Translations under genes and position numbers: made by a program
Notes under the pieces: model-generated
Seen by the model: the letters and a program-made list of their open reading frames with translations, nothing else
What the model was told of the DNA's origin: nothing
The model's database searches: none
DNA from: Sphingomonadales bacterium
Lineage (GTDB): Bacteria > Pseudomonadota > Alphaproteobacteria > Sphingomonadales > Sphingomonadaceae
NCBI GenBank assembly: GCA_017309275.1
Contig: JAFKLT010000059.1
Span: forward strand, 1 to 61,642
Length of the DNA: 61,642 nt
Direction: 5' to 3'
Shown: positions 22,205 to 60,954 of the stretch, one piece after another
Layout: every line of letters begins with the position of its first letter
Numbering within the stretch: position 1 is the first letter of the stretch

Positions 22205-22232
22205 TGAGGGATGAGTCGTTCTGGTGCGTAAT
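22205..22232 (+). promoter_or_regulatory. ECF-type promoter for TonB receptor A
   Basis: TGAGGG (22205-22210), exactly 16 bases, then CGTAAT (22227-22232) with TG before it. This is the same architecture as the promoter of the ECF sigma operon at 33096-33123. It lies 141 bases upstream of the receptor start and points to it. Confidence 0.72.
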
Positions 22233-22373: not shown

Positions 22374-24488
22374 ATGAACAAATTATACTGTTATTCGTCG
22401 ACGAAGCGCGCAATGCAGCGAAGCTCGATGGCGGCGATTGCGGTGGCGGTCGCGTTTCCCGCGCAGGCTCAGGAAGCCCAGTCGGACGGCCTCGCCGAGA
22501 TCATCGTAACGGCGGAGAAGCGCGAGGAAAATCTGCAGTCCGTTCCCGTCTCGGTGACAGCGATGACCGGCGAGGCGCTTACGGCAACGGGCATATCAAA
22601 CGTCGAAGACCTCCAATTTTTTGTGCCGGGCGTGTCGATCACCAACGATTCCATGGCGATCATCAATATTCGTGGAATTGGCACCTCGGCGTTCGGCGTT
22701 GCGACCGACCCCAGCACGACAGTCCATTATGACGGCGTCTACATCTCGCGCCCGACCACAAGCTATCAGGATTTGTTCGACGTCGAACGCATCGAGGTGC
22801 TGCGCGGACCGCAAGGCGTTCTCTTCGGTCGCAACTCCGCCGGCGGCACACTCAACATCATTTCCAAAATGCCTACGGAGGATTTGACTGGCGCGCTGGG
22901 ACTCACCGTCGGAAATTACGAGAAGCGCTCGCTGAGCGGCACGATTTCTGGACCGCTTGGAGCGGGCGTCCGAGGCCGCCTCACCTTGCTTGCCAACCAG
23001 CGCGACGGCATCTACCGCGACGTCGTCTCGGGACGGCGATACCAAAACGAAGATAATCTCGCTGGACGACTGACGCTTGCGATTGACGCGAGCGACCGTC
23101 TTGAGATCGTGTTGCGGGCGGATGCCAGCCGTGATCGCGAGACCGGCGCGCGGTCTGTTCGGCCCTTTTATCCGCAAGGCTTCGTCGATGCGGGGGCGAC
23201 GATCCCGGCCAATGACAAAGAGGCCGCACTCGACCGCCTGCCGCGTTACGATGTCGATGCCTGGGGCGTGTCCTCGACCATGAACTGGGACGGCGGCCCG
23301 GTCACGCTCCGCTCGATTACGGCGCTGCGCAAGAGCAAGGTCGTCCAGGCGCTCGACGTTGACTCGACTGACCTCTTCCTCCGCGATATCGAATTTTACG
23401 AACGTTCCCGCAGTTTCACGCAAGAGTTCCAACTTCTCAACAACGATGCGGACAAGCTGCGCTGGATCGTCGGAGCATTCTATCTGAATGAAAAGGGCAA
23501 CGACGAAATACGGATCATCGAACCGGGTCGTCGGCTCGCGATCCCGGAAAACAATACGACGAATGCATTCGCGCTCTTCGGACAAGCAAGCTACGAACTC
23601 ATCGACCGCCTGCGATTGACCGGAGGGCTTCGATACTCATACGAAAAAAAGGATTTCGGATATCGTGTCCTGCTGAACGGAAATCAGGTCGATGCCGGTC
23701 AGCCCAAATCATCCTGGACCGCCTGGACTCCGAAAATTGGGATCGATTACGACCTTGCCGATGACGTCATGGCTTATGCGTCGGCAACCCGCGGGTTCAA
23801 ATCGGGTGGATTCCAGCTGGGAGACGGGCGGCCTTTCCTCCCGGAGTATGTCTGGAGCTACGAAGTCGGCCTGAAGTCGACGCTCCTCGATCGCCGGCTT
23901 CGAGCTAATTTTTCGGCCTTCTATTATGATTACACCAATCTTCAGGTGGTCGAGTATAATAATGGCGTTGCCAGTACCACCAACGCCGGCAAGGCGACGA
24001 TCAAGGGCGTTGAAGCGGAACTGATGGCACGGCCGTTCGATCGCCTGACGCTTACATCCACGATCGCTTATCTCGATGCGCGCTACGATGTCTATTTTGA
24101 CGACGTCGGCGCAAGCCTCAAGGGCAAGCGGCTGCCGAACGCGCCGAAGTGGAACATCACTCTCGGCGGAGAATATAAGGCCTCCCTGGGCGGCGGAATG
24201 CTGACATTACGGACCGATATCTCCTGGCGCGACAGCATCTTTTTCAAGCCCAGCAACAATCCGCTTTTTTCCGGAAACGCCACGACCCTTATAAATGGGC
24301 GTGTCGCATGGCAGCCGGCGAGCGAAGCGTGGGAAATTGCGCTTTATGGCCGAAATCTCACCAACGAGCGCTATGTGAGCTATAGTACGATCGGGACGGA
24401 CGCGACGGGTGTCTCGAACCCTACTCTTCCGCTCTACATCTACGGCGAGCCGCGCCAGTACGGATTGCAGCTGCGCTACTTTTTCTGA
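22374..24488 (+). CDS. TonB-dependent receptor A
   Basis: 704-residue outer-membrane receptor. It has a signal peptide (cut near PAQAQ), a TonB-box-like IIVTAEKREENLQSVPVSV, a plug domain with RGPQGVLFGRNSAGG, and a 22-strand barrel ending in LQLRYFF with the required terminal aromatic. It imports a siderophore, metal complex or other bulky ligand; the substrate cannot be read. The start follows AGGGGAAG. The gene stands alone and has the ECF-type promoter upstream, linking it to the copper regulon. Its GC is lower than the neighbouring cus genes, suggesting separate acquisition. Confidence 0.92.
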   Translation: MNKLYCYSSTKRAMQRSSMAAIAVAVAFPAQAQEAQSDGLAEIIVTAEKREENLQSVPVSVTAMTGEALTATGISNVEDLQFFVPGVSITNDSMAIINIRGIGTSAFGVATDPSTTVHYDGVYISRPTTSYQDLFDVERIEVLRGPQGVLFGRNSAGGTLNIISKMPTEDLTGALGLTVGNYEKRSLSGTISGPLGAGVRGRLTLLANQRDGIYRDVVSGRRYQNEDNLAGRLTLAIDASDRLEIVLRADASRDRETGARSVRPFYPQGFVDAGATIPANDKEAALDRLPRYDVDAWGVSSTMNWDGGPVTLRSITALRKSKVVQALDVDSTDLFLRDIEFYERSRSFTQEFQLLNNDADKLRWIVGAFYLNEKGNDEIRIIEPGRRLAIPENNTTNAFALFGQASYELIDRLRLTGGLRYSYEKKDFGYRVLLNGNQVDAGQPKSSWTAWTPKIGIDYDLADDVMAYASATRGFKSGGFQLGDGRPFLPEYVWSYEVGLKSTLLDRRLRANFSAFYYDYTNLQVVEYNNGVASTTNAGKATIKGVEAELMARPFDRLTLTSTIAYLDARYDVYFDDVGASLKGKRLPNAPKWNITLGGEYKASLGGGMLTLRTDISWRDSIFFKPSNNPLFSGNATTLINGRVAWQPASEAWEIALYGRNLTNERYVSYSTIGTDATGVSNPTLPLYIYGEPRQYGLQLRYFF

Positions 24489-26258: not shown

Positions 26259-26888
26259 TCAGTGCCCTGCGTGTTCGCCCGCTCCGCTTGGTTTCTGACT
26301 CGCGCCTTCCGCCTCTGTCATGCCCTTCATCATCGCGTCATGGTCCATTGGCGCATTCTGCGTAATAGCCTGATATTGTGCCGGCGACAGGCCAGGGAGT
26401 TTTCGGACAAACGCGACCATATCCCAGATGAGACGATCATCATGCGTTTTCCCCCAGGCCGGCATGGCGGTCATCTTGATGCCATGCTTGATGATCCAGA
26501 ATTGCTCCGCAGCCGAACGTTCCGAACCTTTGAACAAGACGGGCGCTTGCGGATACAGCCCTTGACTCATTTCGGTCTTTTCCATCCCGGGCGCGAGATG
26601 GCAGCCGCTGCACATCTCGGTATAGAGACCTGCGCCCGACGCGATCCGCGCCGGAGCCGCCAAATCTGCCGGCACCGCGATCGATCCGGATCGCGCTGCG
26701 ATGGACTTCTCCCTGAATGTTTCGATGACGCTGTAAGTCAGCCGGTTATGGGGGGCATCGGCCGCTATATTATATAGGCCGAGATAGACGGTGATCGCAC
26801 CCGCGCCCGCTATCAGGGCAACCGCCAGCAGCGTGAACGTCACGCTCGGCATATGCTTTCGGAAATCGAAAGTTCGAAATCGCTCCAT
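26259..26888 (-). CDS. Membrane-anchored cytochrome c
   Basis: 209 residues: N-terminal membrane helix (residues 16-36), then a class I cytochrome c domain with the heme motif CSGCH, and a distal Met in MTAMPAWG. The C-terminal tail is Met/His-rich (MDHDAMMKGM, GEHAGH), typical of copper-island proteins. It carries electrons in the periplasm. Its start overlaps the stop of the small Cys-rich ORF in TAATG, so it is translationally coupled to the Cu(I)-ATPase operon upstream. Confidence 0.88.
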   Translation of the reverse strand: MERFRTFDFRKHMPSVTFTLLAVALIAGAGAITVYLGLYNIAADAPHNRLTYSVIETFREKSIAARSGSIAVPADLAAPARIASGAGLYTEMCSGCHLAPGMEKTEMSQGLYPQAPVLFKGSERSAAEQFWIIKHGIKMTAMPAWGKTHDDRLIWDMVAFVRKLPGLSPAQYQAITQNAPMDHDAMMKGMTEAEGASQKPSGAGEHAGH

Positions 26889-27058
26889 TATCTATCTCCC
26901 GCATAACAGGCCTTGAGCTTTGCAGCCGAACGCAATGCGGCGGCTGTGCAACAGATGATACGCACCCCAACAGCTTTGCCCTTGTCACAGACGAGGCAGG
27001 CGTTTCCGTACTTGCCGCGACGAGCCATTTCAGGGTGCCCACACCCGCTCGGGCTCAT
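26888..27058 (-). CDS. 56-residue Cys-rich small protein
   Basis: A short ORF starting at 27058 with AGGA 7 bases upstream and ending in a TAATG overlap with the cytochrome c gene. It has six Cys (6, 21, 24, 36, 37, 51), including CLVC and a CC pair, and many Lys/Arg. No signal peptide, so it is probably cytosolic. A small metal-binding or zinc-ribbon-like protein is possible, but no family is recognised. An internal ATG at 27028 would give 46 residues and has no ribosome site. Confidence 0.5.
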   Translation of the reverse strand: MSPSGCGHPEMARRGKYGNACLVCDKGKAVGVRIICCTAAALRSAAKLKACYAGDR

Positions 27059-27645: not shown

Positions 27646-29964
27646 TCAGATTCTGGCAAAGCGCAGCCGCAAAGAATTGGCGATGACGCTGACGGACGAG
27701 AGTGCCATTGCAGCGGCGGCAATGACCGGCGAGAGCAATAGTCCGAAAATCGGATAGAGCACGCCCGCAGCGACGGGAATCCCGGCGACATTATAGGCGA
27801 AAGCGAAGAAGAGATTCTGACGGATGTTCGCCATCGTCGCATGGCTGAGATGCCGCGCCCGCACGATGCCCAGAAGGTCGCCGCGCAGTAGCGTCACACC
27901 CGCGCTTTCGATGGCGACATCGGTTCCCGAACCCATCGCGATGCCGACGTCGGCGGCGGCGAGCGCGGGGGCGTCGTTTACCCCGTCGCCGGCCATGGCG
28001 ACGATCCGGCCCTCTTCGCGCAGCCGCTGCACGACCGCACTCTTCTGGTCGGGGAGGACATCGGCCTCGACGTCGTCGATGCCGAGGCGCCGCGCGATCG
28101 CCTCGGCGGTGACGCGATTGTCGCCGGTTAGCATGATGACCTTGATTCCGGCTTCGCGCAGCGCCGCGAGTGCGTCGCCCGTCGTCTCCTTGACCGGATC
28201 GGCGATGGCGATGACGCCGGCCGCCTTGCCGCTGACCGCGATGTAGATCGCCGTTGCACCGTCTGTACGAAGCCGGTCAGCCGCCTCGGCGAGTGCGCCC
28301 AGATCGACGTCATATTCTTCGAGAAAGTTCGCATTGCCGAGGACGATCGCCTTGTCGTCGACGACCCCGACGATGCCCTTGCCGACCGGCTGGTCGACTC
28401 CCGATGGCTCGACGAGCGCGAGGGCGCGGTCTTCCGCCGCTTTGACGATTGCGGCGGCCAATGGATGTTCGCTGCTGCGCTCAAGGCTCGCGGCAATCCG
28501 GAGGAGGTCGTTTTCCTCGAACCCTTCGGCGACTTCGATGGCGACGACCGAGGGCCTGCCTTCTGTCAGCGTCCCGGTCTTATCGACGACGAGCGTGTCG
28601 ACCTTCTCCATCCGCTCAAGCGCCTCGGCATTTTTGATCAGCACGCCAACTTCGGCGCCGCGCCCCACGCCGACCATGATGGACATTGGCGTCGCGAGGC
28701 CGAGCGCGCAGGGACAGGCGATGATGAGCACCGAGACGGCGGCGATAAGGCCATAGGCCATGGCGGGCACGGGGCCCAGAAGCGACCAGACAACGAAAGC
28801 GGCAATGGCGACGACGATGACGCCGGGCACGAACCAGCCCGAAACGGCATCGGCGAGACGCTGGATCGGCGCGCGGCTGCGCTGCGCATCGGCGACCATC
28901 TGTACGATTCGCGCGAGCATCGTGTCGCGCCCGACCTTCTCGCTGCGCATGAGCAGGCCGCCCGTTTGATTGATCGTTCCGCCGACCAGCGCCGCCCCGG
29001 CCGCCTTGGTCACCGGCATCGATTCGCCCGTGACCATCGATTCGTCGACCGTGCCGCGGCCTTCTACGACGATGCCATCGACGGGGACTTTTTCGCCCGG
29101 ACGGATGCGTAGCATGTCACCGACCGCGACGTCCTCGAGCGCGACCTCCTCGTCGCTTCCATCGCTGCGGACGCGCCGGGCGAGCTTCGGTGTGAGGTCA
29201 AGGAGCGCGCGGATCGCGCCGCTCGTCGTTTCGCGGGCCCTGAGTTCGAGCACCTGCCCGAGTAGCACCAGCACCGTGATGACCGCCGCCGCCTCGAAAT
29301 AGACCGCGACCGAGCCATCATCGGCGCGGAACGCAGCCGGAAAGATTTGGGGGACGATCGCCGCGATCATGCTGTAGCCCCACGCGACCCCGGTCCCCAT
29401 CGCGATGAGGGTGAACATGTTGAGGCTTTTGTTGCGGATTGAGAGCCACGCGCGCTCGAAGAAGGGCCAGCCCGCCCATAGAACGACGGGAGTCGCGAGC
29501 AACATCTGGGTCCAGTTGTTCGTCTGGCGACCGACAAATTGATGAAGGCCTGTCAGATGGCCGCCCATTTCGAGCGCAACCACCGGGAGAGCGAGAAGGA
29601 GCCCGATCCAGAAGCGCCGCAGCATGTCGCGATATTCTTCGCTGGGGCCATCCGAGGCGGTTGGCATGACCGGCTCGAGTGCCATGCCGCAGATCGGGCA
29701 GCTGCCGGGGCCGGCGCGCTGAATCTCCGGATGCATTGGGCAGGTCCAGATGGCGCCCTCTGGTGGATCGATTACGGCCGGCCCGCTATTTCCGGCATAA
29801 AGATCGGGATTGGCTTCGAATTTGGAGAGACAACCCGCGCTGCAAAAATGATGATGCCCGTTATGCGTCGCTGTGTGGACGGTGGTCGCTGGGTCGACAG
29901 CCATGCCGCAGACCGGATCGGTAGCACTTCTCCTGCCTTTTTCTGCGTCCTGATGAGTGTGCAT
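27646..29964 (-). CDS. copA: Cu(I)-exporting P-type ATPase (CopA/ActP type)
   Basis: 772 residues from 29964, which follows GGGGAG. The N-terminus has a YHS-like DPVCGM site (C19) with a CSAGC pair instead of HMA CxxC, then a heavy-metal-binding segment TCPMHPEI...CPICGM (from C75). The pump core has TGES, the CPC ion site (417-419) and DKTGT (D461). CPC with the YHS/CPMHP head is typical of Cu(I) exporters in copper islands. An ECF-type promoter lies upstream. The symbol is shared with the multicopper oxidase at 34553-36424, which is unrelated. Confidence 0.94.
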
Positions 29965-30077
29965 CGCCGCCGCTCCCCGATGAATGCCCGCCTCTTGGCG
30001 GGCCAGTACAAACGCCACTGGTCGAATTCACCGTTGGCATCTTACTTGGCGGTTCCGGAACGGAAACCGCTTCTATC

Positions 30078-30105
30078 GATACGCAACAAGAGCGATTATC
30101 CCTTG
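30078..30105 (-). promoter_or_regulatory. ECF-type promoter for the Cu(I)-ATPase operon
   Basis: Minus strand: CAAGGG (30100-30105), 16 bases, CGTATC (30078-30083) preceded by TTG. It lies about 115 bases upstream of the ATPase start and matches the sigma-operon promoter in layout. The -35 differs from TGAGGG at two positions. Confidence 0.7.
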
Positions 30106-30126: not shown

Positions 30127-30813
30127 TCAGGCCGTGGGCTTTCCGGCCTCGATGATCGCAATCGCACCGGTTGGCGTGCGAAACGTCTCAACTTCGCGCA
30201 CGTCGCGAAAGCCGGCCTCTCTCATCAGAACCGGGAGCAATCCATCGGCATTGGGCTGCGTATCATGAACGCCATCGAGCTGCTGGATGGTCAGACGGAA
30301 CAGTGTACGCATAAGGCGGCTGCGCTGTTCTCCATAGTCGGCAACAAAGAGCTTGCCGCCGGGCGCAAGCGCCTGACGGGCCTCGCGCAGCAGACGTGCC
30401 TTTTCTTCAAGTCCGACCTGATGCAGGACGAGGCAGATCGCGACTTTCGTTGGGGCCGGCCAGCAGGCAACGGCCGATGCCGAAAAGAAGCCGACACAAA
30501 ATTCCGGTACGGGGATAATCCGCGCGGTCTTGGTTCGCGCAATTCGCGTCGCCGCTTCGTCGGGATCGATACCAAGATAGCGGACACCGGAGCTGTGGCG
30601 CGCGACCGCCAACGAGAGATTGCCGGTGCCCGAACCGATGTCGAGAATGATGTCGCCTTCGGCGGGAGCCATATGGTCGACGAGGCGTTCGCGCCAGATG
30701 CGCTCGCGGGTCGTGACGGCAACCCCGAAATCATAAAGCGGCGTCAGCCAATGATAGCCTGCTGCCGGCGTATAGGAACGCATCGGGGGTTTCGGTTCGG
30801 ATATGGCGGCCAC
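30127..30813 (-). CDS. Class I SAM-dependent methyltransferase (copy 2)
   Basis: 228 residues with a GTG start; ATG at 30783 is an alternative. The SAM site is LDIGSGTG, followed by GIDPDE and CLVLHQ. The segment FVADYGEQRSRLMRTLF and the C-terminal PTGAI strand match the methyltransferase at 7962-8621. It lies 124 bases after the AraC gene at 30938-31705, so the AraC-methyltransferase order of the first locus is repeated here inside the copper region. Substrate unknown. Confidence 0.77.
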   Translation of the reverse strand: MAAISEPKPPMRSYTPAAGYHWLTPLYDFGVAVTTRERIWRERLVDHMAPAEGDIILDIGSGTGNLSLAVARHSSGVRYLGIDPDEAATRIARTKTARIIPVPEFCVGFFSASAVACWPAPTKVAICLVLHQVGLEEKARLLREARQALAPGGKLFVADYGEQRSRLMRTLFRLTIQQLDGVHDTQPNADGLLPVLMREAGFRDVREVETFRTPTGAIAIIEAGKPTA

Positions 30814-30937
30814 CTCATCGCGTTACGGCTTGCGGAACGATTGCGGCCGCGTGGCCGTCAAGACGGACCGTTTAAGGCCGGACAGGCTTAGCGGTCTTGA
30901 ATGTTTCGCCGGAAGCGCGATGCGCCGGGCGCCCCGC

Positions 30938-31705
30938 TCAGGATATGATTTCGAAAGCGAAAGCGCCGAGGCCTGCCGAGGGTGTCACGCCGAGCCATTG
31001 ACCGCAGCGCCTCGTGAAATGCGACTGGTCGGCAAAGCCGCCCGCCGCTGCGGCGTCGGCGAGGCCTCCGCCGGCCGCCAGCGCCCGCATGGCGCGCTGG
31101 AGCTGGAGCCATTGCAGCAATTTGGCCGGAGGCACGCCAAAGTCCCGGCCGACGATTTCGCGCAGGCGCGAGGGCGAAAGGCAGGCGACATCGGCCAGCG
31201 CCCGCGCCGTCGACAAATCGTCGGGAATCGCGAGCGCGGCGGACAAACGCGGGTCGAGCGGGTTTGTCGGCGATTGGTCGAGATAGTCGGACGCCCAGCG
31301 CTTTGCGTCCACCGCGTTCGCAATTTCGCCGAGGCCAGCCGCCGCTGCGGGCGCCAGCAAGACGGGCGCCGACCGGGCGGCGAGGCGCGCATCGGCGCGA
31401 AAAAGCGGGTCGAGATAGAAGGACCGCACAAGGGCGCCCTTGGGCCCAAGGCGATGGTGGACATGCGACGCGATGGCGACGGCCTGTCCGACGGGAAGCG
31501 TCATCGGTTCGTCGCCGCCAATATCGAGATCGCGTTCGACGGCGAGACTTATTTGATGCGCGAGATGGCTGTGGGGGCGGCTGTTCCCGATGCGCGCGTC
31601 GATCAAGGCCCAGCCGGTTCCCAGCATGATCGTGCCCGACCAGGAAGACACGTCGGCGCTCAAGCCGCGGCGATGCCGACGAACGGCTCGAGCGTACCGA
31701 ACCAT
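30938..31705 (-). CDS. AraC-family transcriptional regulator (copy 2)
   Basis: Up to 255 residues. The real start is uncertain: 31705 overlaps copD by 46 bases, while TTG at 31663 overlaps its stop (TTGA) and would leave a typical AraC sensing N-terminus (SSWSGTIMLGTGWAL, then HSHLAHQ). The C-terminal half has two helix-turn-helices (ADVACLSPSRLREIV; ADAAAAGGFADQSHFTRRC). It belongs to the same branch as the AraC protein at 8669-9358 and follows copCD on the same transcript. Confidence 0.8.
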   Translation of the reverse strand: MVRYARAVRRHRRGLSADVSSWSGTIMLGTGWALIDARIGNSRPHSHLAHQISLAVERDLDIGGDEPMTLPVGQAVAIASHVHHRLGPKGALVRSFYLDPLFRADARLAARSAPVLLAPAAAAGLGEIANAVDAKRWASDYLDQSPTNPLDPRLSAALAIPDDLSTARALADVACLSPSRLREIVGRDFGVPPAKLLQWLQLQRAMRALAAGGGLADAAAAGGFADQSHFTRRCGQWLGVTPSAGLGAFAFEIIS

Positions 31706-32625
31706 GCAACCAGCGCGAGGATGGCGAGCGCTGCCGATGCTTCGATCACAAGGCTCTTGCGCATCGCCGCCAGCGCCAGGTCGGGATCAGTAGCGACTCC
31801 CTCCGGATCGGCGCCCGGGATGGCGGCCATGAGCGCCGGGGTTAGCCTCCAGCGGTTCGCTGCCGCCAGCGCCAGCATCAGGCCGAACAGCGCGAGCTTG
31901 GCGAGGAGCAATTGTCCGTAGGGCGATTCGAGCGATCGTCCCAGATTTTCGGCCCCGACGATCATCTGGCTATTGATGAGGCCGGTCGCGGCAATGACGA
32001 GGACGCATATCGTGCCGACGCGCGAAAATTGATCGAGGCTTCGCGCCGCGAGGCGGACCCCATCCGGTATATTGCCGAGCCGCTTTCGCGAAATCAGCAG
32101 CAGGAAGGCACCGATGGCGCCGATCCAGACTGCCGCTGCGATCAGGTGCAACATGTCGCTGACCCGATGAATGGTTCCGGCCCCGCCCTCGGTCGCGCCC
32201 GCATGGCCGGACCAGACCAAACTGGCAACGGCGACCGAGCCGGCGAGCGTGAGGATCGCAGCGGCAGTTGTCGGCCAACGTGTCATCCAGACCGCAATCG
32301 CCAGCGCGAAAAGCAGCGCGGCGCTCCGAACGATCCAAGCCAAGCCCACTTCGGACTCGCGCACCAGGTCCCAGAATGGCTGGAACTCAAGCGAGAAGAG
32401 GCCGACGCCCTGCATTGACGCCGCGAGGACGGCCATTCCGAGGGTAGAGACGAGCAAGCCGGCGCCGCACAACCAACGCTCCGCGCGCCAGATCGCAGCC
32501 ATTGGCTCGAGGTCGGCCCGTTCGCTGCGTGTCAACGCGTAAAGCGAGAACGCCGCGAGGCCGACGACGAGCATCAGGTCCGCGTAAAGCGCGAACCTGA
32601 TGCCGATCAAAATCGGGTCGCCCAC
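31660..32625 (-). CDS. copD: CopD copper resistance membrane protein
   Basis: 321 residues, about eight membrane segments, with His and Met in the membrane helices (HAGATEG, HRVSDMLHLIAAAVWIG) as in the CopD/YcnJ family. It moves copper across the inner membrane together with CopC. It starts 4 bases after the copC stop, so copCD is an operon under the ECF-type promoter at 33044-33071. Confidence 0.9.
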   Translation of the reverse strand: MGDPILIGIRFALYADLMLVVGLAAFSLYALTRSERADLEPMAAIWRAERWLCGAGLLVSTLGMAVLAASMQGVGLFSLEFQPFWDLVRESEVGLAWIVRSAALLFALAIAVWMTRWPTTAAAILTLAGSVAVASLVWSGHAGATEGGAGTIHRVSDMLHLIAAAVWIGAIGAFLLLISRKRLGNIPDGVRLAARSLDQFSRVGTICVLVIAATGLINSQMIVGAENLGRSLESPYGQLLLAKLALFGLMLALAAANRWRLTPALMAAIPGADPEGVATDPDLALAAMRKSLVIEASAALAILALVAWFGTLEPFVGIAAA

Positions 32626-32629
32626 CGCC

Positions 32630-33013
32630 TTACTTTACGGTGAAGCTGAATTCGCTACCCATGCGGTGGGTGTCGGCACCTGCCGCCGACCATGTGACCT
32701 TGTAGGTTCCGGGCGAGAGCGGTCGCTTGACCATCAACATCGCCGACTTGCCTTCCTTGCCCATCATCGACGAGAAGGGGACCTTCATCGGAGCATGATT
32801 GGCCATGCCGGGCATCCCGGTCATGACCAACTCGGTCTTGAGGGTCGAGGCGACGATCTTTTCGTTGAACTGGAGATTGATCGACGTCACTTTCGAGACC
32901 GTCGAATTGGCCGTAGGCGTCGAAGCCACCAGCTTGGTGTGCGCGCTCGCCGTGATCGGCATAAGGAACAACGCGAAAGCGGCAGCCGTAGAGGGGAGAA
33001 ACGTCTTGAGCAT
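32630..33013 (-). CDS. copC: CopC periplasmic copper-binding protein
   Basis: 127 residues. Start 33013 follows GGAGG. The signal peptide ends in ASAHTKL, so the mature protein begins with His, the Cu(II) ligand known for CopC. A beta-barrel follows with Met-rich MTGMPGMANHAPM and a final ADTHRMGSEFSFTVK strand. It is a periplasmic copper carrier paired with CopD. Confidence 0.93.
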   Translation of the reverse strand: MLKTFLPSTAAAFALFLMPITASAHTKLVASTPTANSTVSKVTSINLQFNEKIVASTLKTELVMTGMPGMANHAPMKVPFSSMMGKEGKSAMLMVKRPLSPGTYKVTWSAAGADTHRMGSEFSFTVK

Positions 33014-33043: not shown

Positions 33044-33071
33044 AATACGCAGGGCATCGACATGGCCCTCA
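33044..33071 (-). promoter_or_regulatory. ECF-type promoter for copCD
   Basis: Minus strand: TGAGGG (33066-33071), 16 bases, CGTATT (33044-33049) preceded by CTG. The predicted leader to copC is about 25 bases. It is head to head with the sigma-operon promoter at 33096-33123. Confidence 0.8.
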
Positions 33072-33095
33072 TATTTCCTTGGGGAATATTCTGTG

Positions 33096-33123
33096 TGAGG
33101 GGTCCGACGTTTCGGCGCGTATG
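33096..33123 (+). promoter_or_regulatory. Autoregulatory ECF-type promoter of the sigma operon
   Basis: TGAGGG (33096-33101), 16 bases, CGTATG (33118-33123). It lies 29 bases upstream of the anti-sigma gene. ECF operons usually drive themselves, so this is the reference site for the motif. Confidence 0.8.
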
Positions 33124-33152: not shown

Positions 33153-33419
33153 ATGGATGAGGAGCTTCGCATTTTGGACAGGGTTGATCTGCCCTCAGCA
33201 CTTGATGCGCTCGACGATCGCATCATGGGGGCGTTGGCGTTGCGACGACGCGAAGCTGCGGCGATGCCGCGGATGATGGCGTTGGCGGCGTTCATTTCGC
33301 TCGCAGGCGGCGTATTTGCGGGAAGCGCGATCTCTCAGCCGGCGGTCGCAGCGAGTCCGCTCGCGCCCTTTGGGCCGGCGAGCGCGCTGGCGCCCTCCAC
33401 CTTGCTGGACGTGCGGTAA
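33153..33419 (+). CDS. CnrY-like anti-sigma factor (small membrane protein)
   Basis: 88 residues: about 40 cytosolic residues with a helical, acidic/Leu-rich start (MDEELRILDRVDLPSALDALDDR), one membrane helix (about 41-62) and a short periplasmic Pro/Ala tail. There is no ZAS His/Cys zinc motif. This layout and its place ahead of a CnrX-like sensor and an ECF sigma match CnrY of CnrYXH. Sequence similarity alone would be too weak, so the call rests on order and topology. The sensor gene starts 2 bases after its stop. Confidence 0.72.
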   Translation: MDEELRILDRVDLPSALDALDDRIMGALALRRREAAAMPRMMALAAFISLAGGVFAGSAISQPAVAASPLAPFGPASALAPSTLLDVR

Positions 33420-33421
33420 AG

Positions 33422-33859
33422 ATGCCCTCACGCCGTCTACTTCTCGTGGCAATCATCGCTTTCGCGGCAGCCATAGCTGGCGTTTTCGTCGGGCGTGTGG
33501 TGTCCGATGCGCCGAAGGCGGATGAGACCGAACTGCACGCGTTGCTTCATGGTGAACTCGACTTGACCAAAGAGCAGCAAGCGAGGATCGAGCGGATCGA
33601 AGCTGATTTTACGAGCCGCCGTCGAGCGTTAGAGCTGGAAATGCGGGCTGCTAATGTCCGGCTCGCGCAGGCGATAGAGGCTGAACATGGCTATGGGCCG
33701 CAGGTCACCAAGGCGATCGACGAGACGCACGAAGTGATGGGCGATCTTCAAAAGGAAACGCTCCAGCATCTCTTCGCGATGCGAGGGGTCCTGAGCCCCG
33801 ATCAGGCAGAGATGTTCGACAAGAGCGTGGTCAAGGCGCTGACCGCCGATGCGCAGTGA
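33422..33859 (+). CDS. CnrX-like periplasmic heavy-metal sensor
   Basis: 145 residues: N-terminal membrane anchor (6-24), then a four-helix periplasmic domain. The five ligands known for Ni/Co in CnrX (H42, H46, E63, H119, M123) appear here as H39, H43, E60, H116 and M120, each shifted by exactly three residues, in LHALLH, RIERIEADF and QHLFAM. It should bind a metal ion in the periplasm and release the sigma factor through the anti-sigma protein. The copper-gene context suggests copper as inducer, but Ni or Co is equally allowed by the ligands. Confidence 0.85.
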   Translation: MPSRRLLLVAIIAFAAAIAGVFVGRVVSDAPKADETELHALLHGELDLTKEQQARIERIEADFTSRRRALELEMRAANVRLAQAIEAEHGYGPQVTKAIDETHEVMGDLQKETLQHLFAMRGVLSPDQAEMFDKSVVKALTADAQ

Positions 33860-34440
33860 GCGCCGACCTATCGCAATTCAGCGATCAGGACTTGGCAGCC
33901 TTCGCCCGCGCGCATCGAGAAGATGCATACCGCGAGTTGTTGCGGCGACATAAAACCGGTATCTACCGGCTCATCGTCAAGCAGATCGGCGATGCCGATG
34001 AAGCGATGGATCTGACGCAGGAAAGCTTCGTTGCTGGCTTCTCTGCGCTTGATCGCTACGATGGCGATCGGTCATTTCGCACCTGGATCGCACATATTGC
34101 ACTCAATAAATGCCGCGATTGGGCACGCCGGAGACGAGTGCGCGCCTTCTTTTCCCGAGCGCTTCCGCTGGAGAGCGCCCATCATGTCGCAAGCGATAAC
34201 CCGGGACCGGACGCCGAGACAACTGACAAGCGGGAGCTCGCGCGGGTTCGCGGAGCGATCGACCTCTTACCGCAAAATTTGCGTGAGGTGTTGCTTTTGC
34301 GCGGCGTCGATGAGGTCAGCCAAGCGGAAACTGCTATGATTTTGCGGGTCAGCGAGAAGACTGTCGAAACGCGACTCTATCGAGCGCGGAGCAGGCTCAG
34401 AGAATTGCTTGCGAGAACATCCGCGAGCGCAGGAGGTTGA
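33856..34440 (+). CDS. ECF RNA polymerase sigma factor (CnrH-like)
   Basis: 194 residues with a GTG start overlapping the sensor stop (GTGA). Region 2 is visible as YRLIVKQIGDADEAMDLTQESFVAGFSAL...FRTWIAHIALNKCRDW, and region 4 as LPQNLREVLLLRGVDEVSQAETAMILRVSEKTVETRLYRAR. It is the output of the sensor module and probably recognises the TGAGGG-N16-CGTAT promoters found in front of the copper genes. No other sigma factor is encoded in the window. Confidence 0.92.
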   Translation: MSADLSQFSDQDLAAFARAHREDAYRELLRRHKTGIYRLIVKQIGDADEAMDLTQESFVAGFSALDRYDGDRSFRTWIAHIALNKCRDWARRRRVRAFFSRALPLESAHHVASDNPGPDAETTDKRELARVRGAIDLLPQNLREVLLLRGVDEVSQAETAMILRVSEKTVETRLYRARSRLRELLARTSASAGG

Positions 34441-34490: not shown

Positions 34491-34518
34491 TGAGGGGAAG
34501 TCCTTTTGCCTGCGTATA
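34491..34518 (+). promoter_or_regulatory. ECF-type promoter for the copAB operon
   Basis: TGAGGG (34491-34496), 16 bases, CGTATA (34513-34518) preceded by CTG. It lies 34 bases upstream of the multicopper oxidase start. Its 3' half matches the copC site closely (CCTGCGTAT in both). Confidence 0.8.
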
Positions 34519-34552: not shown

Positions 34553-36424
34553 ATGCAGATGGAAAGGCGTCGGTTCGTCACTGGAGCTTTGGGAGGCGGC
34601 GCCGCCGCAGCGATGGCTGCATGGTTCCCCGCTTGGGCCCAGCCCGTCTCTTCAGGTATCACGGCACCCCTCCCCACTGTCGCCGGCAACGACATTACGC
34701 TCCGCATCGCGCGCCAGACGATGCGGATCGACGGCAAGCTCAGCCGCGCGATTGGTATAAATGGCACGGTTCCCGCCCCGCTCGTTCGGCTGAAGGAGGG
34801 GCAGACCGCCCGCTTGACTGTCGTCAATGACCTCGACGAGGACAGCTCGATCCACTGGCACGGGCTGATCCTGCCTTTCCAGATGGATGGCGTCCCGGGA
34901 GTCAGCTTTCCGGGCATCAAGCCGCGCTCAACCTTCGTTTACGAGTTCCCGGTCGTCCAGTCGGGCACCTATTGGTATCACAGCCACTCGGGTCTGCAGG
35001 AGCAACTCGGCCATTACGGCCCGATCGTCATCGATCCCGCTGGTGTCGATCCGATTGGCTACGATCGCGAGCATGTCGTCGTGCTCTCCGACCACAGCCA
35101 GCTGTCACCCGAAGCGGTCTTCCGCAAACTCAAGGTTAATCCCGGTCATTTCAACATGCAGCGCCAGACCCTTTCAGGCCTGCTTGCCGGGAAGGATCAG
35201 CCGCTCAAGGAGCGGATCGATTGGGGCAAGATGCGGATGGATCCCACCGACGTCGCCGACGTCAACGGCTCGACCTACACCTTCCTCGTCAACGGCCACG
35301 GGCCGCGCGACAACTGGACCGCGCTGTTCAATCCCGGCGAACGTGTGCGGCTGCGGATCGTCAACGCGTCGGCGATGACGATCTTCAACGTCCGTATCCC
35401 TGGCCTCAGAATGACCGTGGTGCAGGCTGACGGCCTCAATGTCGTGCCGACCGAGATCGACGAATTCCAGATTGCCGTTGCCGAGACCTACGACGTGATC
35501 GTGACCCCGGTCGAGGATCGCGCCTATACGATGGTCGCCGAGGCCAACGACCGCTCGGGCATGGGGCGCGCGACACTCGCACCGCGCGCCGGAATGGCCG
35601 CCGAGGTGCCTCCGCTGCGCGAGCGTCCGCTCGCAACGATGAAGGACATGGGCATGGGCGACATGAATATGTCGGGCGGTTCAATGACCGGCATGGACCA
35701 TAGCGGGATGGCAATGGGAGCCGAAAGCGGCGCGGCGCCGATGGAAATGCCTGCAGGCGAGACGATGCCGGGCATGGATATGCCCGGTGCAGCTGCACCG
35801 GCTGCGGGAGCCATGGCAGGCATGGATCATTCGTCCATGGTCGTCATGGCAGGCATGGATCATGGCAGCATGAAAATGCGCGATTTCTCGGTCGCACCGC
35901 AAGTTGATCGAAATCCGGGCGTTCAGACGATCTCTCCGATGCCGCCTGATCGCATGGGCGATCCGGGGCAAGGGCTTGAGGATGTGGGGCACAAGGTGCT
36001 GACGTACCATGACCTCATCGCGCTCGAGCGCAATCCCGATGTGCGCGCTGCCGAGCGGTCGCTCGACATTCATCTCACGGGCAACATGGAGCGCTTCATG
36101 TGGTCGTTCGACGGCGTGAAGATGTCCGACTATCATGAGCCGATTCCGTTCATCGAAGGCGAACGAGTGCGGATCAACCTCATCAACGATTCGATGATGA
36201 GCCACCCGATCCATTTGCACGGCCATTTTTTCGAGCTGGTCACGGGGAAGGGCGATCGTTCGCCGCGCAAGCATACGGTGCTGGTCCAGCCGGGCGGCAC
36301 CGCGAGCTTCGATTTCACCGCTGACGCGCTCGGTGACTGGGCGTTCCACTGCCATCTTCTCTATCATATGCACGCCGGGATGATGCGCGTCGTCAGCGTC
36401 CGTCCGAAAGGAGACGGCGAATGA
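34553..36424 (+). CDS. copA: CopA multicopper oxidase
   Basis: 623 residues with a Tat signal (ERRRFVTG, cut near AWAQ). Three cupredoxin domains carry the copper ligands HWHG (101-104), WYHSHS, HPIHLHGHFF and the type 1 site HCHLLYHMHAGMM (from H599). A Met-rich insert (about residues 363-440, many MGM/MDH units) is typical of CopA and stores or passes Cu(I). It oxidises Cu(I) to Cu(II) in the periplasm. It heads the operon and overlaps copB by ATGA. Confidence 0.96.
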   Translation: MQMERRRFVTGALGGGAAAAMAAWFPAWAQPVSSGITAPLPTVAGNDITLRIARQTMRIDGKLSRAIGINGTVPAPLVRLKEGQTARLTVVNDLDEDSSIHWHGLILPFQMDGVPGVSFPGIKPRSTFVYEFPVVQSGTYWYHSHSGLQEQLGHYGPIVIDPAGVDPIGYDREHVVVLSDHSQLSPEAVFRKLKVNPGHFNMQRQTLSGLLAGKDQPLKERIDWGKMRMDPTDVADVNGSTYTFLVNGHGPRDNWTALFNPGERVRLRIVNASAMTIFNVRIPGLRMTVVQADGLNVVPTEIDEFQIAVAETYDVIVTPVEDRAYTMVAEANDRSGMGRATLAPRAGMAAEVPPLRERPLATMKDMGMGDMNMSGGSMTGMDHSGMAMGAESGAAPMEMPAGETMPGMDMPGAAAPAAGAMAGMDHSSMVVMAGMDHGSMKMRDFSVAPQVDRNPGVQTISPMPPDRMGDPGQGLEDVGHKVLTYHDLIALERNPDVRAAERSLDIHLTGNMERFMWSFDGVKMSDYHEPIPFIEGERVRINLINDSMMSHPIHLHGHFFELVTGKGDRSPRKHTVLVQPGGTASFDFTADALGDWAFHCHLLYHMHAGMMRVVSVRPKGDGE

Positions 36425-37644
36425 CCCGGGTCGCGCTTCTCCTCGCGGGTATCGCCCCGCTTGCCTTTGCTGTGCCCGCCGCGGCGCAGTCGATGGATCA
36501 TTCGATGCATGGTGCGGCGCCTGCGCCAACATCTGCTCCTTCGCCAACGCCAACGCCGACGCCAGCGCCGGTTGCGCAGCCCGCGCCCGAAGCGCCGGCC
36601 GAAGGGTCGATGGAGCAGATGGACCATGGGAGCATGCAGGGCATGGACATGGCGCCTAAAACTTCGACCTGCCTGCCCGACCATGCGGCGATGGGTCATT
36701 GTACGCCCGAGGCGGAGACTGCGGACAAGGGCGCTTCAGACATGGACGCGATGGATCATGGCACGGTGGCGCCATCCGATCCCGATTGTCCGCCCGAACA
36801 TGCCAAAATGGGCCATTGCACCCCGAAGGGCGGGTCTGCGAACCCCATGGCGGGAATGGAAGGCATGGCGACCACGAGCAGCGGTAGCGGCACCGATTTG
36901 CCGCCGGGAGATGCTACCGCGCCTGCGCCACCCGGCGACTGGTATGCCGATCGCATCTACCCCAAGGCCGAAATGGAGCATTCGCGCCACGACATGATGA
37001 AGGAGAATGGCGCGCAGACCATCGCTTTCATCAGCTTCAATCTTGCCGAATATCAGGCGCGCAAGGGTCGCGACGGATTCCGCTGGGACGGTGAGGCTTG
37101 GTATGGCGGCGACATCAACCGGCTGACGCTCAAGAGCGAAGGCGAGGCCGTGTTCGGCGAAGGGGTTGAGGGCGCCGAGGTCCAGGCACTCTATAGCCGG
37201 GCGATCGGCCCCTATTTCAATGCGCAGGCGGGTATCAGACAGGATCTTGGATCCGGCCCCGATCGCACCTATGCGACGATCGGTTTCGAGGGGCTCGCGC
37301 CCTATTGGTTCGAAGTCGAGGGCGCCTTGTTTTTGTCCAACAAGGGTGATCTGCTCGCGCGACTGGAAGGCTATTACGACCAGCGTATTACCCAGAAGCT
37401 GATTTTGCAGCCGAGGGCCGAGTTCAATTTTGCGCTTCAGGACGTTCCCGAAACCGGAATTGGTTCGGGACTGTCGGATGTCGAGCTCGGACTGCGCCTC
37501 CGCTATGAAATTGTGAAAGAGTTCGCGCCTTATGTCGGTGTCGAATGGGCGCGGAAGGTCGGGGATACTGCGCGTTTTGCTCGCGCCGCCGGCGAAGATC
37601 CCGGCGGAGTCAACTTCGTGATGGGGGTGCGCGCCTGGTTCTAG
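36421..37644 (+). CDS. copB: CopB outer-membrane copper resistance protein
   Basis: 407 residues. A signal peptide (ending AAAQS) leads to a long disordered Met/His/Pro-rich region with repeated MDHGSM units and two related CLPDHAAMGHCTP / CPPEHAKMGHCTP copies, then a beta-barrel domain (WYADRIYPKAEM to VNFVMGVRAWF) ending in Phe. It is the standard partner of CopA and is thought to sequester or export copper at the outer membrane. Confidence 0.95.
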   Translation: MTRVALLLAGIAPLAFAVPAAAQSMDHSMHGAAPAPTSAPSPTPTPTPAPVAQPAPEAPAEGSMEQMDHGSMQGMDMAPKTSTCLPDHAAMGHCTPEAETADKGASDMDAMDHGTVAPSDPDCPPEHAKMGHCTPKGGSANPMAGMEGMATTSSGSGTDLPPGDATAPAPPGDWYADRIYPKAEMEHSRHDMMKENGAQTIAFISFNLAEYQARKGRDGFRWDGEAWYGGDINRLTLKSEGEAVFGEGVEGAEVQALYSRAIGPYFNAQAGIRQDLGSGPDRTYATIGFEGLAPYWFEVEGALFLSNKGDLLARLEGYYDQRITQKLILQPRAEFNFALQDVPETGIGSGLSDVELGLRLRYEIVKEFAPYVGVEWARKVGDTARFARAAGEDPGGVNFVMGVRAWF

Positions 37645-37682
37645 AAGTTGCGCGGGGCGTCGAATCGTCGAGGAGAAATACC

Positions 37683-38126
37683 GTGAAACCAGCCTATCGC
37701 AGTCTCGCAGTGCAGACGATCGTCAGCGGCGTCATCATGTATCTGGTGATGTTCGTGATGATCGACCGCCTGTCGAGTTTCTACAATAACCTCAATATGG
37801 TTTACATGACGCTGATGATGGTTTCCCCGATGGTTGTCCTGATGATCCTCGCGATGCCGGGCATGTTTCCGTCGAAGCGCCTCAATATGTTTCTGCTGCT
37901 GGGATCGGCAGTCGCCTTCTTCGGGAGCTTTGGGCTGATCCGGACGCAAACGACGATCGGAGACACGGCCTTCTTGCGTTCGATGATCCCGCACCATTCG
38001 GGCGCTATCCTCATGTGCGAACAGGCGTCCCTCAAGGATGCCGAAGTTCGCGCACTCTGCCACGGAATTATCACGGGGCAAAAGGCCGAAATCGAACAGA
38101 TGAAATCCATACTCGCGAGGAAATGA
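37683..38126 (+). CDS. DUF305 family membrane protein
   Basis: 147 residues with GTG start at 37683 set by AGGAGA. Three membrane helices precede a short C-terminal DUF305 segment with the HH pair (SMIPHHSGAILMCEQASL) and a later Cys. DUF305 proteins are ferritin-like and common in copper clusters. It lies 38 bases after copB in the same operon. Confidence 0.82.
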   Translation: MKPAYRSLAVQTIVSGVIMYLVMFVMIDRLSSFYNNLNMVYMTLMMVSPMVVLMILAMPGMFPSKRLNMFLLLGSAVAFFGSFGLIRTQTTIGDTAFLRSMIPHHSGAILMCEQASLKDAEVRALCHGIITGQKAEIEQMKSILARK

Positions 38127-38127
38127 T

Positions 38128-38652
38128 ATGACGGGTCGAATGACGCGCCGCTATCTTCTCGGGCTGATCGCGGCTGGATCGGGAGTGGCGCTGGTGGCAT
38201 GCAGTTCTGCTTCGGCTCCAACGGCGGCCGATACAAAGAATGAAAAGGCCGACCCGTCGCGCTCCGATGCGGCAAAGGTCAGACGGATTCTCGTTTATCG
38301 CGACCCACAATGCGGCTGCTGTGAAGCGTGGGCAGAGATTGCTCGCAAAGCGGGCTATGACGTGACAGTCGAGAACCGTGCCGACATGGCAGCCGTAAAG
38401 GCGCGATACGGAGTGCCCGATCAATTGACCTCCTGCCATACGGCGGTCGTTGGCGGCTATGCGATTGAGGGTCATGTGCCGATGCGCCATGTCGCCCGAC
38501 TGCTTGGCGACAATCCAAGCGATATTCGCGGAATTGCCGTACCCGGCATGCCGCGCGGTTCGCCGGGGATGGAAATGCCGGATGGAAGTTCCGACGCGTT
38601 CGAGGTGATGGCGTTCGGCGCGAACGGGAAGATTGCTCGATTCCACGCATGA
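38128..38652 (+). CDS. DUF411 copper-related exported protein
   Basis: 174 residues. A twin-Arg start (MTRRYLLG) runs into a lipobox-like VACSS. The mature DUF411 domain has DPQCGCCEAW, a thioredoxin-like Cys cluster, and TSCHTAVVGGYAIEGHVP. These proteins (CopG-like) bind copper in the periplasm, probably in an electron-transfer or chaperone role. It starts one base after the DUF305 stop. Confidence 0.85.
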   Translation: MTGRMTRRYLLGLIAAGSGVALVACSSASAPTAADTKNEKADPSRSDAAKVRRILVYRDPQCGCCEAWAEIARKAGYDVTVENRADMAAVKARYGVPDQLTSCHTAVVGGYAIEGHVPMRHVARLLGDNPSDIRGIAVPGMPRGSPGMEMPDGSSDAFEVMAFGANGKIARFHA

Positions 38653-39353: not shown

Positions 39354-40241
39354 TCAATCCGCCAAGCGATTATGTATTGCCGTCGCCGCCTTGGCAGCCT
39401 GACCAGACGCCACCGCAATTTGATCTAGCCCCTCGACCATATCGCCGGCAGCGAATATTCCGCTAATTGTTGTTTGTTGGTGTTCATCGACCAAAATGCA
39501 GCCTGAAGCACTTAGCTCTGCGCCTGCCATTCGCGCCAGACCGCAGTTCGCCGATGTCCCGAGGGCGGCATATAGCGTGTCAAACTGCAGCGACTCGCCA
39601 TCTGCCAACGTTATGCGCAAGTCCCGATCTTCGACCGCGATTTCTTGAACAGGCGCCGACCTTACGCTCACACCAATTTCCGAAAGATGTAATGCTTCGA
39701 TTTCCGAAAGTTGCGCCGCATTCTGTGCAAGCAGTGTCACGGCGCCGGTATAATGGCGGATGAATCTTGCCTCGGCTGCGCCATGGTCGGAACAGCCGAG
39801 GACCGCAACTCGTTTGCCTCGGACTTCATAGGCGTCACAGATTGGACAATATCGTATCAGCCCGTGCGCTACCCCTCGGTCATGAGCATCTTGCGCGATC
39901 CTGGGTCGATGGTTTGAAACGCCCTGCGCAAGCAATATTGTTCGCGCCTCGAAGGTTCTCGAACTTGTCCGTGCGGCAAAGCCGGCTTCCGTCCGCGCGA
40001 TGCCTTCGACGACGCCAGTCACCATTTCAGCCCCGTAACGGGAGGCGTGCTCCCGCATCCGATCAAGCAACTCGCGGCCCGAAATCCCGTCAGGGAATCC
40101 GAGAAGATTATGCGTTTGCGGGATTTGGGCCGCGCGGCCCGCTCCTTCGTCAATGACCAGTGTCGAGCGCAGAAATCTTCCCAGATAAGTGGCTGCTGTG
40201 AGTCCTGCCGGCCCACCCCCGATGATGATGCAGTCGTACAT
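39354..40241 (-). CDS. Thioredoxin reductase-like FAD/NAD(P) oxidoreductase
   Basis: 295 residues from 40241, which has GCGAGG upstream. The FAD motif GGGPAG (8-13) is followed by a redox pair C132-P-I-C135, a second nucleotide fold (VAVLGCSDHGAAEA) and GIFAAGDMVEG near the end. Size and CxxC fit the thioredoxin reductase/AhpF group; its thioredoxin partner is not adjacent. It probably repairs thiols damaged by copper. An ECF-type promoter lies 33 bases upstream. Confidence 0.86.
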   Translation of the reverse strand: MYDCIIIGGGPAGLTAATYLGRFLRSTLVIDEGAGRAAQIPQTHNLLGFPDGISGRELLDRMREHASRYGAEMVTGVVEGIARTEAGFAARTSSRTFEARTILLAQGVSNHRPRIAQDAHDRGVAHGLIRYCPICDAYEVRGKRVAVLGCSDHGAAEARFIRHYTGAVTLLAQNAAQLSEIEALHLSEIGVSVRSAPVQEIAVEDRDLRITLADGESLQFDTLYAALGTSANCGLARMAGAELSASGCILVDEHQQTTISGIFAAGDMVEGLDQIAVASGQAAKAATAIHNRLAD

Positions 40242-40273: not shown

Positions 40274-40301
40274 AATACGTCCCCCGGAGCGCCGACCCTT
40301 G
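40274..40301 (-). promoter_or_regulatory. ECF-type promoter for the thioredoxin reductase-like gene
   Basis: Minus strand: CAAGGG (40296-40301), 16 bases, CGTATT (40274-40279). The expected leader is about 26 bases. The -35 is the variant also seen for the Cu(I) ATPase. Confidence 0.68.
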
Positions 40302-40336: not shown

Positions 40337-40364
40337 CGAGGGGAAAACGTCTCGGATGCGTAGT
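40337..40364 (+). promoter_or_regulatory. ECF-type promoter for the orphan fliQ
   Basis: CGAGGG (40337-40342), 16 bases, CGTAGT (40359-40364) preceded by ATG. It is 36 bases upstream of the fliQ start and head to head with the thioredoxin reductase promoter. Confidence 0.62.
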
Positions 40365-40399: not shown

Positions 40400-40672
40400 T
40401 TGGGATTGGAGAACCGGTTCTCGATTTCGATGGGGCAGACGCTTTGGGTCGCCATCGTTGTAGCCGGCCCTCCGCTTCTATTGGTGCTGGTGATTGGGCT
40501 CATTATTTCCACCATTCAGACGGGGACGTCGGTCAATGAGCCGACGGTAAGCTTCATACCCAAAATTCTGGCATTGGTCCTGTTTCTTGCGCTCTACGGC
40601 GCGGTCGCGTTGGATGTTCTGGTTGATTTTACTCGCGACCTTTGGACCCATATCCCCGAAGACATAAGATGA
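40400..40672 (+). CDS. fliQ: Orphan FliQ-like export-apparatus protein
   Basis: 90 residues with a TTG start 8 bases after AGAGGG; ATG at 40430 would cut into the first helix. Two membrane helices and the diagnostic FliQ features are present: GLIISTIQTGTSVNEPTVSFIPK between them and VLVDFTRDLWTHIPE at the end. FliQ is part of the flagellar type III export gate with FliP and FliR, none of which is encoded nearby. Its role here is unknown; it may be displaced, or co-opted. It is full length. Confidence 0.8.
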   Translation: MGLENRFSISMGQTLWVAIVVAGPPLLLVLVIGLIISTIQTGTSVNEPTVSFIPKILALVLFLALYGAVALDVLVDFTRDLWTHIPEDIR

Positions 40673-49853: not shown

Positions 49854-49881
49854 TGAGGGGTAGAGCTTTGGGGTGCGTATC
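49854..49881 (+). promoter_or_regulatory. ECF-type promoter for TonB receptor C
   Basis: TGAGGG (49854-49859), 16 bases, CGTATC (49876-49881) preceded by GTG. It is 126 bases upstream of the receptor start. The rest of the 285-base gap is AT-rich and holds the repressor-like palindrome at 49951-49960. Confidence 0.75.
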
Positions 49882-49950
49882 TAGTAAGTATCGTGCGCCC
49901 GGAATTTACTTCATAACCAATTGATATGATTCAATAAATTCCTATTGACC

Positions 49951-49960
49951 TGTATATACA
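49951..49960. promoter_or_regulatory. Candidate HutC-like operator upstream of TonB receptor C
   Basis: TGTATATACA is a perfect palindrome, the core of operators bound by HutC/GntR repressors. It lies 47 bases upstream of the receptor gene. A related CCTGTATAGA lies in front of the GntR gene at 54167-54967. Confidence 0.55.
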
Positions 49961-52713: not shown

Positions 52714-52724
52714 GGGTAATCGAT

Positions 52725-60943: not shown

Positions 60944-60954
60944 GTCTCTCCTGC

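Follow-up and report, generated by a model that had tools for sequence, protein, structure and literature searches.

Could a single extracytoplasmic function (ECF) sigma factor switch on a whole island of copper genes in a sphingomonad? The question is raised by a 61,642-nucleotide stretch of a Sphingomonadales bacterium genome (assembly GCA_017309275.1, contig JAFKLT010000059.1; the whole stretch is called the window here). In it, a three-gene operon, Y-X-H, encodes a putative anti-sigma factor, a CnrX-like metal sensor and a CnrH-like ECF sigma factor, and the same two short boxes, held 16 bases apart, recur upstream of this operon and of its copper-gene neighbours. We observed nine such sites, and we consider it highly probable that one CnrH-type ECF sigma factor uses them as its promoters.

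The original prediction listed eight promoters of the form TGAGGG-N16-CGTAT. A pattern search of the window for YRAGGG and CGTA with a 16-base gap located all eight at the positions claimed; by our own gene calls each is aimed at the next gene, and TG precedes CGTA in six of the eight, as had been stated. The exact form, on the other hand, is present in only four of them (33045–33071 on the minus strand and 33096–33122, 34491–34517 and 49854–49880 on the plus strand), and the other four deviate in one or both boxes, with TGAGGG and CGTAA at 22205, CAAGGG at 30080 and at 40276 (both minus strand), and CGAGGG with CGTAG at 40337. The suspicion that eight was an undercount proved right: a ninth match lies at 26959–26984 (minus strand) before a cytochrome c gene. 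With a spacing of 15, the window has no match, and with a spacing of 17 it has one. All nine sites are intergenic and directed at the next gene by our calls; longer open reading frame (ORF) extensions that lack family support overlap some of them. The candidate promoters, with their scores in the weight matrix described below, are as follows.

33096–33122, plus strand: promoter of the YXH operon (autoregulation); exact motif, score 22.1, 30 bases to the ATG of Y.
33045–33071, minus strand: copC-copD promoter, back to back with the YXH promoter; exact motif, score 25.5, 31 bases to the ATG of copC.
34491–34517, plus strand: copA-copB promoter; exact motif, score 25.2, 35 bases to the ATG.
30079–30105, minus strand: promoter of the Cu(I) P-type ATPase gene; CAAGGG-N16-CGTAT, score 23.8.
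26958–26984, minus strand: promoter of the cytochrome c gene (the ninth site); CAAGGG-N16-CGTAT, score 20.9, 69 bases to the ATG.
22205–22231, plus strand: promoter of TonB-dependent receptor A; TGAGGG-N16-CGTAA, score 28.3, 142 bases to the ATG.
49854–49880, plus strand: promoter of TonB-dependent receptor C and two PepSY genes; exact motif, score 29.6, 127 bases to the ATG.
40337–40363, plus strand: promoter of a stand-alone fliQ-like gene; CGAGGG-N16-CGTAG, score 20.4.
40275–40301, minus strand: probable weak promoter of a thioredoxin-reductase-like gene; CAAGGG-N16-CGTAT, score 11.2, at background level.

How rare are these sites? In the 5.1 Mb genome, the degenerate pattern has 23 matches, of which 9 fall in the window (1.2% of the genome), 4 in 4.6 kb of contig C85 and 10 elsewhere, and the reversed control has 30. 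From these counts, about 0.36 chance matches are expected per 61.6 kb, so that the rarity asserted earlier stands, with a figure somewhat below the 0.6 first estimated. The strict pattern gave seven matches in the genome, four in the window and three in C85, compared with one for its control. Furthermore, we scanned the window with a weight matrix trained on 62 distinct sites in 29 loci of 29 other genomes; the whole genome was covered by the pattern search, and its 23 matches were then scored with the matrix. Eight of the nine window sites scored 20.4–29.6 and ranked above everything else in the window, and in 30 windows randomised with a first-order Markov model the best scores averaged 11.4 and peaked at 19.7. 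The next-best match, 13.1 at 48850, lies within the ORF at 47726–48973; a crowd of equally strong in-gene matches, which the original prediction had named as the outcome that would count against it, was therefore not seen in the window (13.1 at best versus 20.4–29.6).

The operon behind the central pair of sites had been described as an ECF sigma operon with a TGAGGG box. The sigma gene and the box are there, but gene Y had been overlooked, and the operon has three genes.

33153–33419, plus strand: Y, putative anti-sigma factor of 88 amino acids with one predicted membrane helix (from position, size and topology).
33422–33859, plus strand: X, CnrX-like periplasmic metal sensor of 145 amino acids (PF13801, E = 2.9e-19).
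33856–34440, plus strand: H, CnrH-like ECF sigma factor of 194 amino acids (PF04542 and PF08281).

The best match of H in the Protein Data Bank (PDB) was CnrH (4cxf, E = 2e-30), followed at E = 3.8e-19 by the next of 23 PDB sequences, and Pfam shows regions 2 and 4 only. X alone matched NccX (4clv, E = 2.3e-20) and CnrX (4wwb, E = 1.3e-17), and all seven of its PDB matches were CnrX or NccX. Five of its residues, H39, H43, E60, H116 and M120, were invariant in all eight aligned X proteins, two of them from Cupriavidus, and they align with H42, H46, E63, H119 and M123 of CnrX, which we take to be the metal ligands of that sensor. Y found no match in family searches. It starts at the ATG at 33153, or possibly at the TTG at 33150, which gives an ORF of 88–89 amino acids between the promoter and X; its hydropathy peaks at 1.91 at residue 42, that of CnrY at 2.02 at residue 46, and the two proteins align with 15% identity. 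The gene order is that of cnrYXH on plasmid pMOL28 of Cupriavidus metallidurans, and CnrH-like boxes stand both before Y and after H. As judged from its sequence, the window operon is most likely an ECF system of the CnrYXH type with copper genes as its targets.

Do the boxes resemble promoters that CnrH is known to use? The available passages of PMC9045368 place the cnrY and cnrC transcription starts of pMOL28 at 53286 and 54660 and call the two promoters non-RpoD and CnrH-controlled. Upstream of those starts, the pMOL28 sequence reads CAAGGG-N17-CGTAT for cnrYp and CGAGGG-N17-CGTAT for cnrCp. Both starts are the eighth base after CGTAT, within the range of 5–9 bases given in the original prediction, and the annotated genes follow 24 and 25 bases downstream, in agreement with the same source. 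The window motif is the cnr boxes minus one spacer base (16 versus 17).

We found the 17-base spacing in the cnr units of pMOL28 and USMAA2-4, in G445 (CnrH 65% identical) and at the copper genes of two Caulobacter plasmids, both of which carry TGCGGG-N17-CGTATA upstream of Y. The 16-base spacing was found in the sphingomonad loci, in Asticcacaulis and in G482. Ten loci with more distant sphingomonad sigma factors all had 16-spaced sites, and L188 and L191 had a 17-spaced site at the expected autoregulatory position; the gap is thus strict for most members and not absolute. In a tree of 36 rows, the 17-spacer sigma factors of Cupriavidus and G445 and those of Caulobacter form separate small clades with 16-spacer rows between them. 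This may hint at two origins of the 17-base spacer, and it is only a hint because the joining forks have a support of only 80/76 and the label count covered labelled groups only. One spacing-16 match inside cnrB of pMOL28 was ascribed to chance and not counted as a site.

Does the motif travel with the sigma factor? Two sets of loci were compared, one of 31 short loci around relatives of H (2 from this genome and 29 from others) and one of the best 80 named loci, in which the nearest relative among the matches listed is a Sphingopyxis metagenome-assembled genome at 98%. In the first set, 76 spacing-16 sites occurred in 30 of the 31 loci, with none at spacings of 12–15 and 17–20 and one at 21, and the reversed control had two at spacing 16. 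Similarly, the second set had 279 spacing-16 sites in 79 of its 80 loci and 0–4 at each other spacing from 12 to 21, compared with 5 at spacing 16 and 1–17 at the other spacings in the reversed control. Among loci with enough upstream DNA, a site preceded Y in 75 of 79 and another lay downstream of the sigma gene start in 74 of 79; a divergent site was present in 69 of 80. When a target was counted only with a site on the right strand within 330 bases upstream (second set), the core genes were nearly always preceded by one: CopA in 75 of 79 cases, CopC in 70 of 73, X (through Y) in 75 of 79, Y itself in 36 of 36 and TonB C in 5 of 6. CopD, an internal operon gene, never had one (0 of 71), and neither did PepSY (0 of 21).

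The same tie was seen in 199 genomes of the family, scored as sigma-positive at E = 1e-25 or better. The 70 sigma-positive genomes held 161 strict sites, with at least one in 62 of the 70 (control, 13), and the other 129 held 71, with one in 49 of the 129 (control, 27). In five of six stretches picked by hand from those others, a weaker sigma relative and an X relative stood beside the sites; the sixth had copA and two sites, with no sigma gene within 5 kb. These results support the claim of an ECF sigma regulon that spans the island, both through the spacing-16 linkage and through the co-occurrence of strict sites.

Could the boxes instead be operators or promoters of another regulator, such as sigma-70 with CueR, CopR or an AraC-type protein, that merely travel with copper genes? 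A CueR gene does adjoin the ATPase gene in several relatives, and in the window an AraC-type gene separates copD from a methyltransferase gene. However, the two boxes keep a constant orientation and a constant distance of 16 bases, the boxes themselves recur at two promoters reported to be CnrH-dependent, and sites stand before 36 of 36 Y genes and 0 of 71 CopD genes. We therefore rate control by such a regulator as very improbable.

Several observations weigh against a single CnrH-type regulon. Over the whole genome, the degenerate pattern shows no enrichment (23 matches versus 30 in the control), and the site at 40276 (minus strand) is background by the matrix at 11.2. The training sites of the matrix were selected with the degenerate pattern, which fixed the box positions by construction, and the matrix test is therefore independent in sequence and not in box choice. 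Some species may be represented in both sets of loci, and the sets lack phylogenetic independence. When built from seven Y proteins and no Cupriavidus or Cnr member, a profile misses CnrY in the PDB (one that includes CnrY recovers it, by construction); Y is therefore assigned by place, size and topology only, and its standing as a proven CnrY homologue was rejected as unproved. The spacer of known CnrH promoters is 17 bases and that of the window sites 16; since its length varies in the wider family, we take the spacer as a variant rather than as something that defines the system. The putative ligands of X are those of a nickel/cobalt sensor, which leaves copper unproved as the signal. Finally, the accessory targets are poorly conserved, with upstream sites in 17 of 44 cases for the ATPase, 1 of 7 for cytochrome c, 0 of 2 for TonB A and 0 of 3 for FliQ, and these counts do not support wide conservation of the first three of these sites.

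This last point raises the question of whether only the core promoters (YXH, copCD, copAB and TonB C) function, the sites at 26959, 30080, 22205, 40276 and 40337 being in part chance matches or relics. Weak conservation of those targets in relatives would fit such a view, as would the background score at 40276 and a match on C89, scoring 16.5, that falls within a TonB-receptor ORF. Against it, four of the five score 20.4–28.3 where about 0.36 chance matches are expected, the fliQ and thioredoxin-reductase sites recur on four of four sphingomonad plasmids, and a cytochrome c gene comes right after a site on three. A core-only system thus appears quite unlikely, and all nine sites are kept as candidate promoters of one sigma factor.

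How would such a regulon work? By analogy with CnrYXH, X would be a periplasmic protein held by one membrane anchor that binds metal, and metal-loaded X would make the membrane-bound anti-sigma factor Y release H. RNA polymerase with H would then recognise YRAGGG as the −35 box and GCGTAT as the −10 box, with 16 bases between them, and transcription would begin about 8 bases after CGTAT. Besides its own operon, the predicted targets of H comprise copCD, copAB, the genes for the Cu(I) ATPase, the cytochrome c and two TonB receptors, and the divergent FliQ-like/thioredoxin-reductase-like pair. Because the nine sites appear to be switched on together by one sigma factor, the response of the island probably depends on a single metal sensor.

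Which metal would that be? From the gene content, copper is the likely main signal. A different view is that the regulon is real and X senses nickel, cobalt or several metals, the copper genes having been recruited to it. The five putative ligand residues that are invariant between X and the nickel/cobalt sensor CnrX would favour this. On the other hand, the targets belong to families of copper genes, 73–79 of the best 80 loci hold copA, copC and X together, and copper genes flank the Asticcacaulis and Caulobacter relatives too, so that a signal other than copper seems unlikely. A broader proposal joins three parts: that sphingomonads control entire copper islands through a CnrYXH-type sigma factor whose sensor reads copper with unaltered nickel/cobalt-type ligands, that the promoter spacing there shifted from 17 to 16, and that a stand-alone FliQ was repurposed and, with the reductase-like enzyme, joined the regulon as a new copper-stress membrane module. 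We advance this combination only tentatively, as somewhat doubtful in its entirety.

The genes downstream of the candidate promoters were identified as follows.

31660–33013, minus strand: copC (32630–33013; start MLKTF) and copD (31660–32625); PF04234 and PF05425.
34553–37644, plus strand: multicopper oxidase gene copA (TIGR01480, 810 bits, above cut-off) and copB (PF05275, 301 bits).
37545–38652, plus strand: DUF305 and DUF411 genes downstream of copB, probably part of the copAB unit; PF03713 and PF04214.
27646–30018, minus strand: copper-translocating P-type ATPase; TIGR01511, 594 bits, above the cut-off of 397.
26259–26888, minus strand: cytochrome c with a cbb3 type III domain; PF13442, E = 3.1e-14.
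22374–24488, plus strand: TonB-dependent receptor A; PF00593 and PF07715.
50008–54160, plus strand: TonB-dependent receptor C (50008–52713; PF00593) and PepSY-type genes at 52725–53429 and 53381–54160, named after annotated counterparts in S. indica.
39354–40241, minus strand: thioredoxin-reductase-like FAD oxidoreductase (start MYDCII); PF07992, E = 5.5e-33; TIGR01292, 166.6 bits, below cut-off.
40400–40672, plus strand: stand-alone FliQ-like membrane protein of 90 amino acids; PF01313, E = 6e-20; TIGR01402, 67.5 bits, below the cut-off of 88.9.

Why would a FliQ-like protein stand in a copper island? It is 37% identical to the other FliQ of this genome, which is encoded among FliP, FliR and FlhB genes. 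In the plasmid database PLSDB it matched five records, namely four sphingomonad plasmids (66–70% identity) and one Pseudomonas partial match. On the four plasmids, a divergent reductase gene (68–71% identity to that of the window) adjoins fliQ beside a heavy-metal P-type ATPase gene, and three of the four have copCD, cytochrome c and YXH within 5–8 kb. In all four, the region between fliQ and the reductase gene contains a site each way, scoring 19.4–24.1 towards the reductase and 22.2–26.1 towards fliQ. In G027, a FliQ gene follows relatives of copC and copD. In the stretches listed, the island FliQ copies had no FliP or FliR gene beside them, and a flagellar-export role of this protein is therefore unlikely. 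The reductase-fliQ pair was not found in G122, of which 39.8 kb were examined.

Is the regulon confined to the island? It had been called island-wide, and the predicted regulon does span the island, but it also reaches beyond it, to C85 and C102. In C85, sites precede copC, YXH, copA and a TonB gene; its sigma factor is 66% identical to H, and its products are 67–89% identical to CopC, CopA and TonB C of the window. Since C85 carries a paralogous YXH with like promoters, the two sigma factors probably share targets. A strong site on C102 (27858–27883; L077:2859), scoring 28.3 and lying outside the islands, precedes a PAS histidine kinase gene, which follows copA- and copB-like genes and is itself followed by response-regulator-like ORFs. 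Apart from this site and the C89 match, the other eight outside matches scored at most 13.1, and in-gene matches were left out of the site count. Of the nine sites, seven recur in the syntenic island of G122, some of them within nearly identical DNA, and its receptor A site, being identical, is not independent. Counterparts of TonB C in C85 and S. indica also have a site upstream.

A few further features of the region were noted. On a Novosphingobium plasmid, copB and DUF305 are followed by a PAS gene. AraC-type regulator and methyltransferase genes occupy 30127–31705 (minus strand), between copD and the ATPase gene, as on S. indica pMC4, and no site of their own was found. The TonB C leader contains a 16-mer, TTGACC TGTATATACA, at 49945–49960 (plus strand) that has an inner palindrome; in 10 of 10 sequences it stands 90–91 bases past the first base of the ECF site. 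It also occurs at L073:14020, L042:19493 and L046:2420 and in L081, L113 and L116–L119; with at most one mismatch, this genome has only two copies, both in TonB C-type leaders. The 16-mer may be a second promoter, an operator or a leader element. Rfam gave a single match at gathering score in the window, a chrB-b RNA (RF03086) at 56393–56441 (minus strand, 43.3 bits). An integrase-like ORF, named from reading its protein, lies near the contig end at 59672–61012 (minus strand), and a transfer RNA scan of the window gave no genes.

These findings tie a CnrH-type promoter to copper genes in loci of many sphingomonad genomes, beside a sensor whose ligands match those of a nickel sensor and whose neighbours are yet copper genes. 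The motif predicts copper-responsive genes, among them unsuspected ones: fliQ, thioredoxin reductase, cytochrome c, TonB receptors and a PAS kinase. Furthermore, the natural 16- and 17-base spacer variants offer material for the question of how ECF polymerases measure spacing. Among the titles listed as matches in the openly licensed PMC literature, none names a CnrH-type copper system in sphingomonads, and no ECF group number was found for H.

How does the window system compare with known ones? The closest is CnrYXH of C. metallidurans pMOL28, which responds to nickel and cobalt and shares the Y-X-H order, the CnrH-like sigma factor, a sensor with the same putative ligands, an autoregulated promoter, a second promoter right after H, and the same −35 and −10 boxes. 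In the published passages covered here, CnrY is described as a class II anti-sigma factor acting on CnrH, and CnrH control is described for cnr only. The two systems differ in that the window system would drive copper genes and CnrYXH drives cnrCBAT, in the number of promoters (nine candidates versus two) and in the spacer (16 versus 17); the sigma factors are 38% and the X proteins 32% identical. NccYXH is also close, NccX being the best PDB match of X, and Cupriavidus sp. USMAA2-4 has an annotated unit of CnrY/NccY, X and sigma factor with two sites; in these, unlike in the window, the spacer is 17 and efflux-pump genes follow.

CorE-type sigma factors have a C-terminal metal-binding domain of their own and no known anti-sigma factor. 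In contrast, H, of 194 amino acids, shows regions 2 and 4 only in Pfam and is preceded by Y and X. The CorE-type factors of Myxococcus are likewise copper-linked in the passages of PMC3107203, and those of PMC12153292 describe them as acting without an anti-sigma factor, whereas in the window a Y-X pair precedes the sigma gene. SigAb-AabA-AabB of Acinetobacter, as far as the published passages go, is also a copper-induced ECF system, in which AabA is modelled to wrap SigAb as CnrY does, but its direct regulon is small (sigAb, relA and sabS) and it acts on metal genes indirectly; it is without an X sensor or a copper island. SigF of Caulobacter crescentus, likened here by description only, is an alphaproteobacterial ECF sigma factor that answers to heavy metals (passages of PMC3511200).
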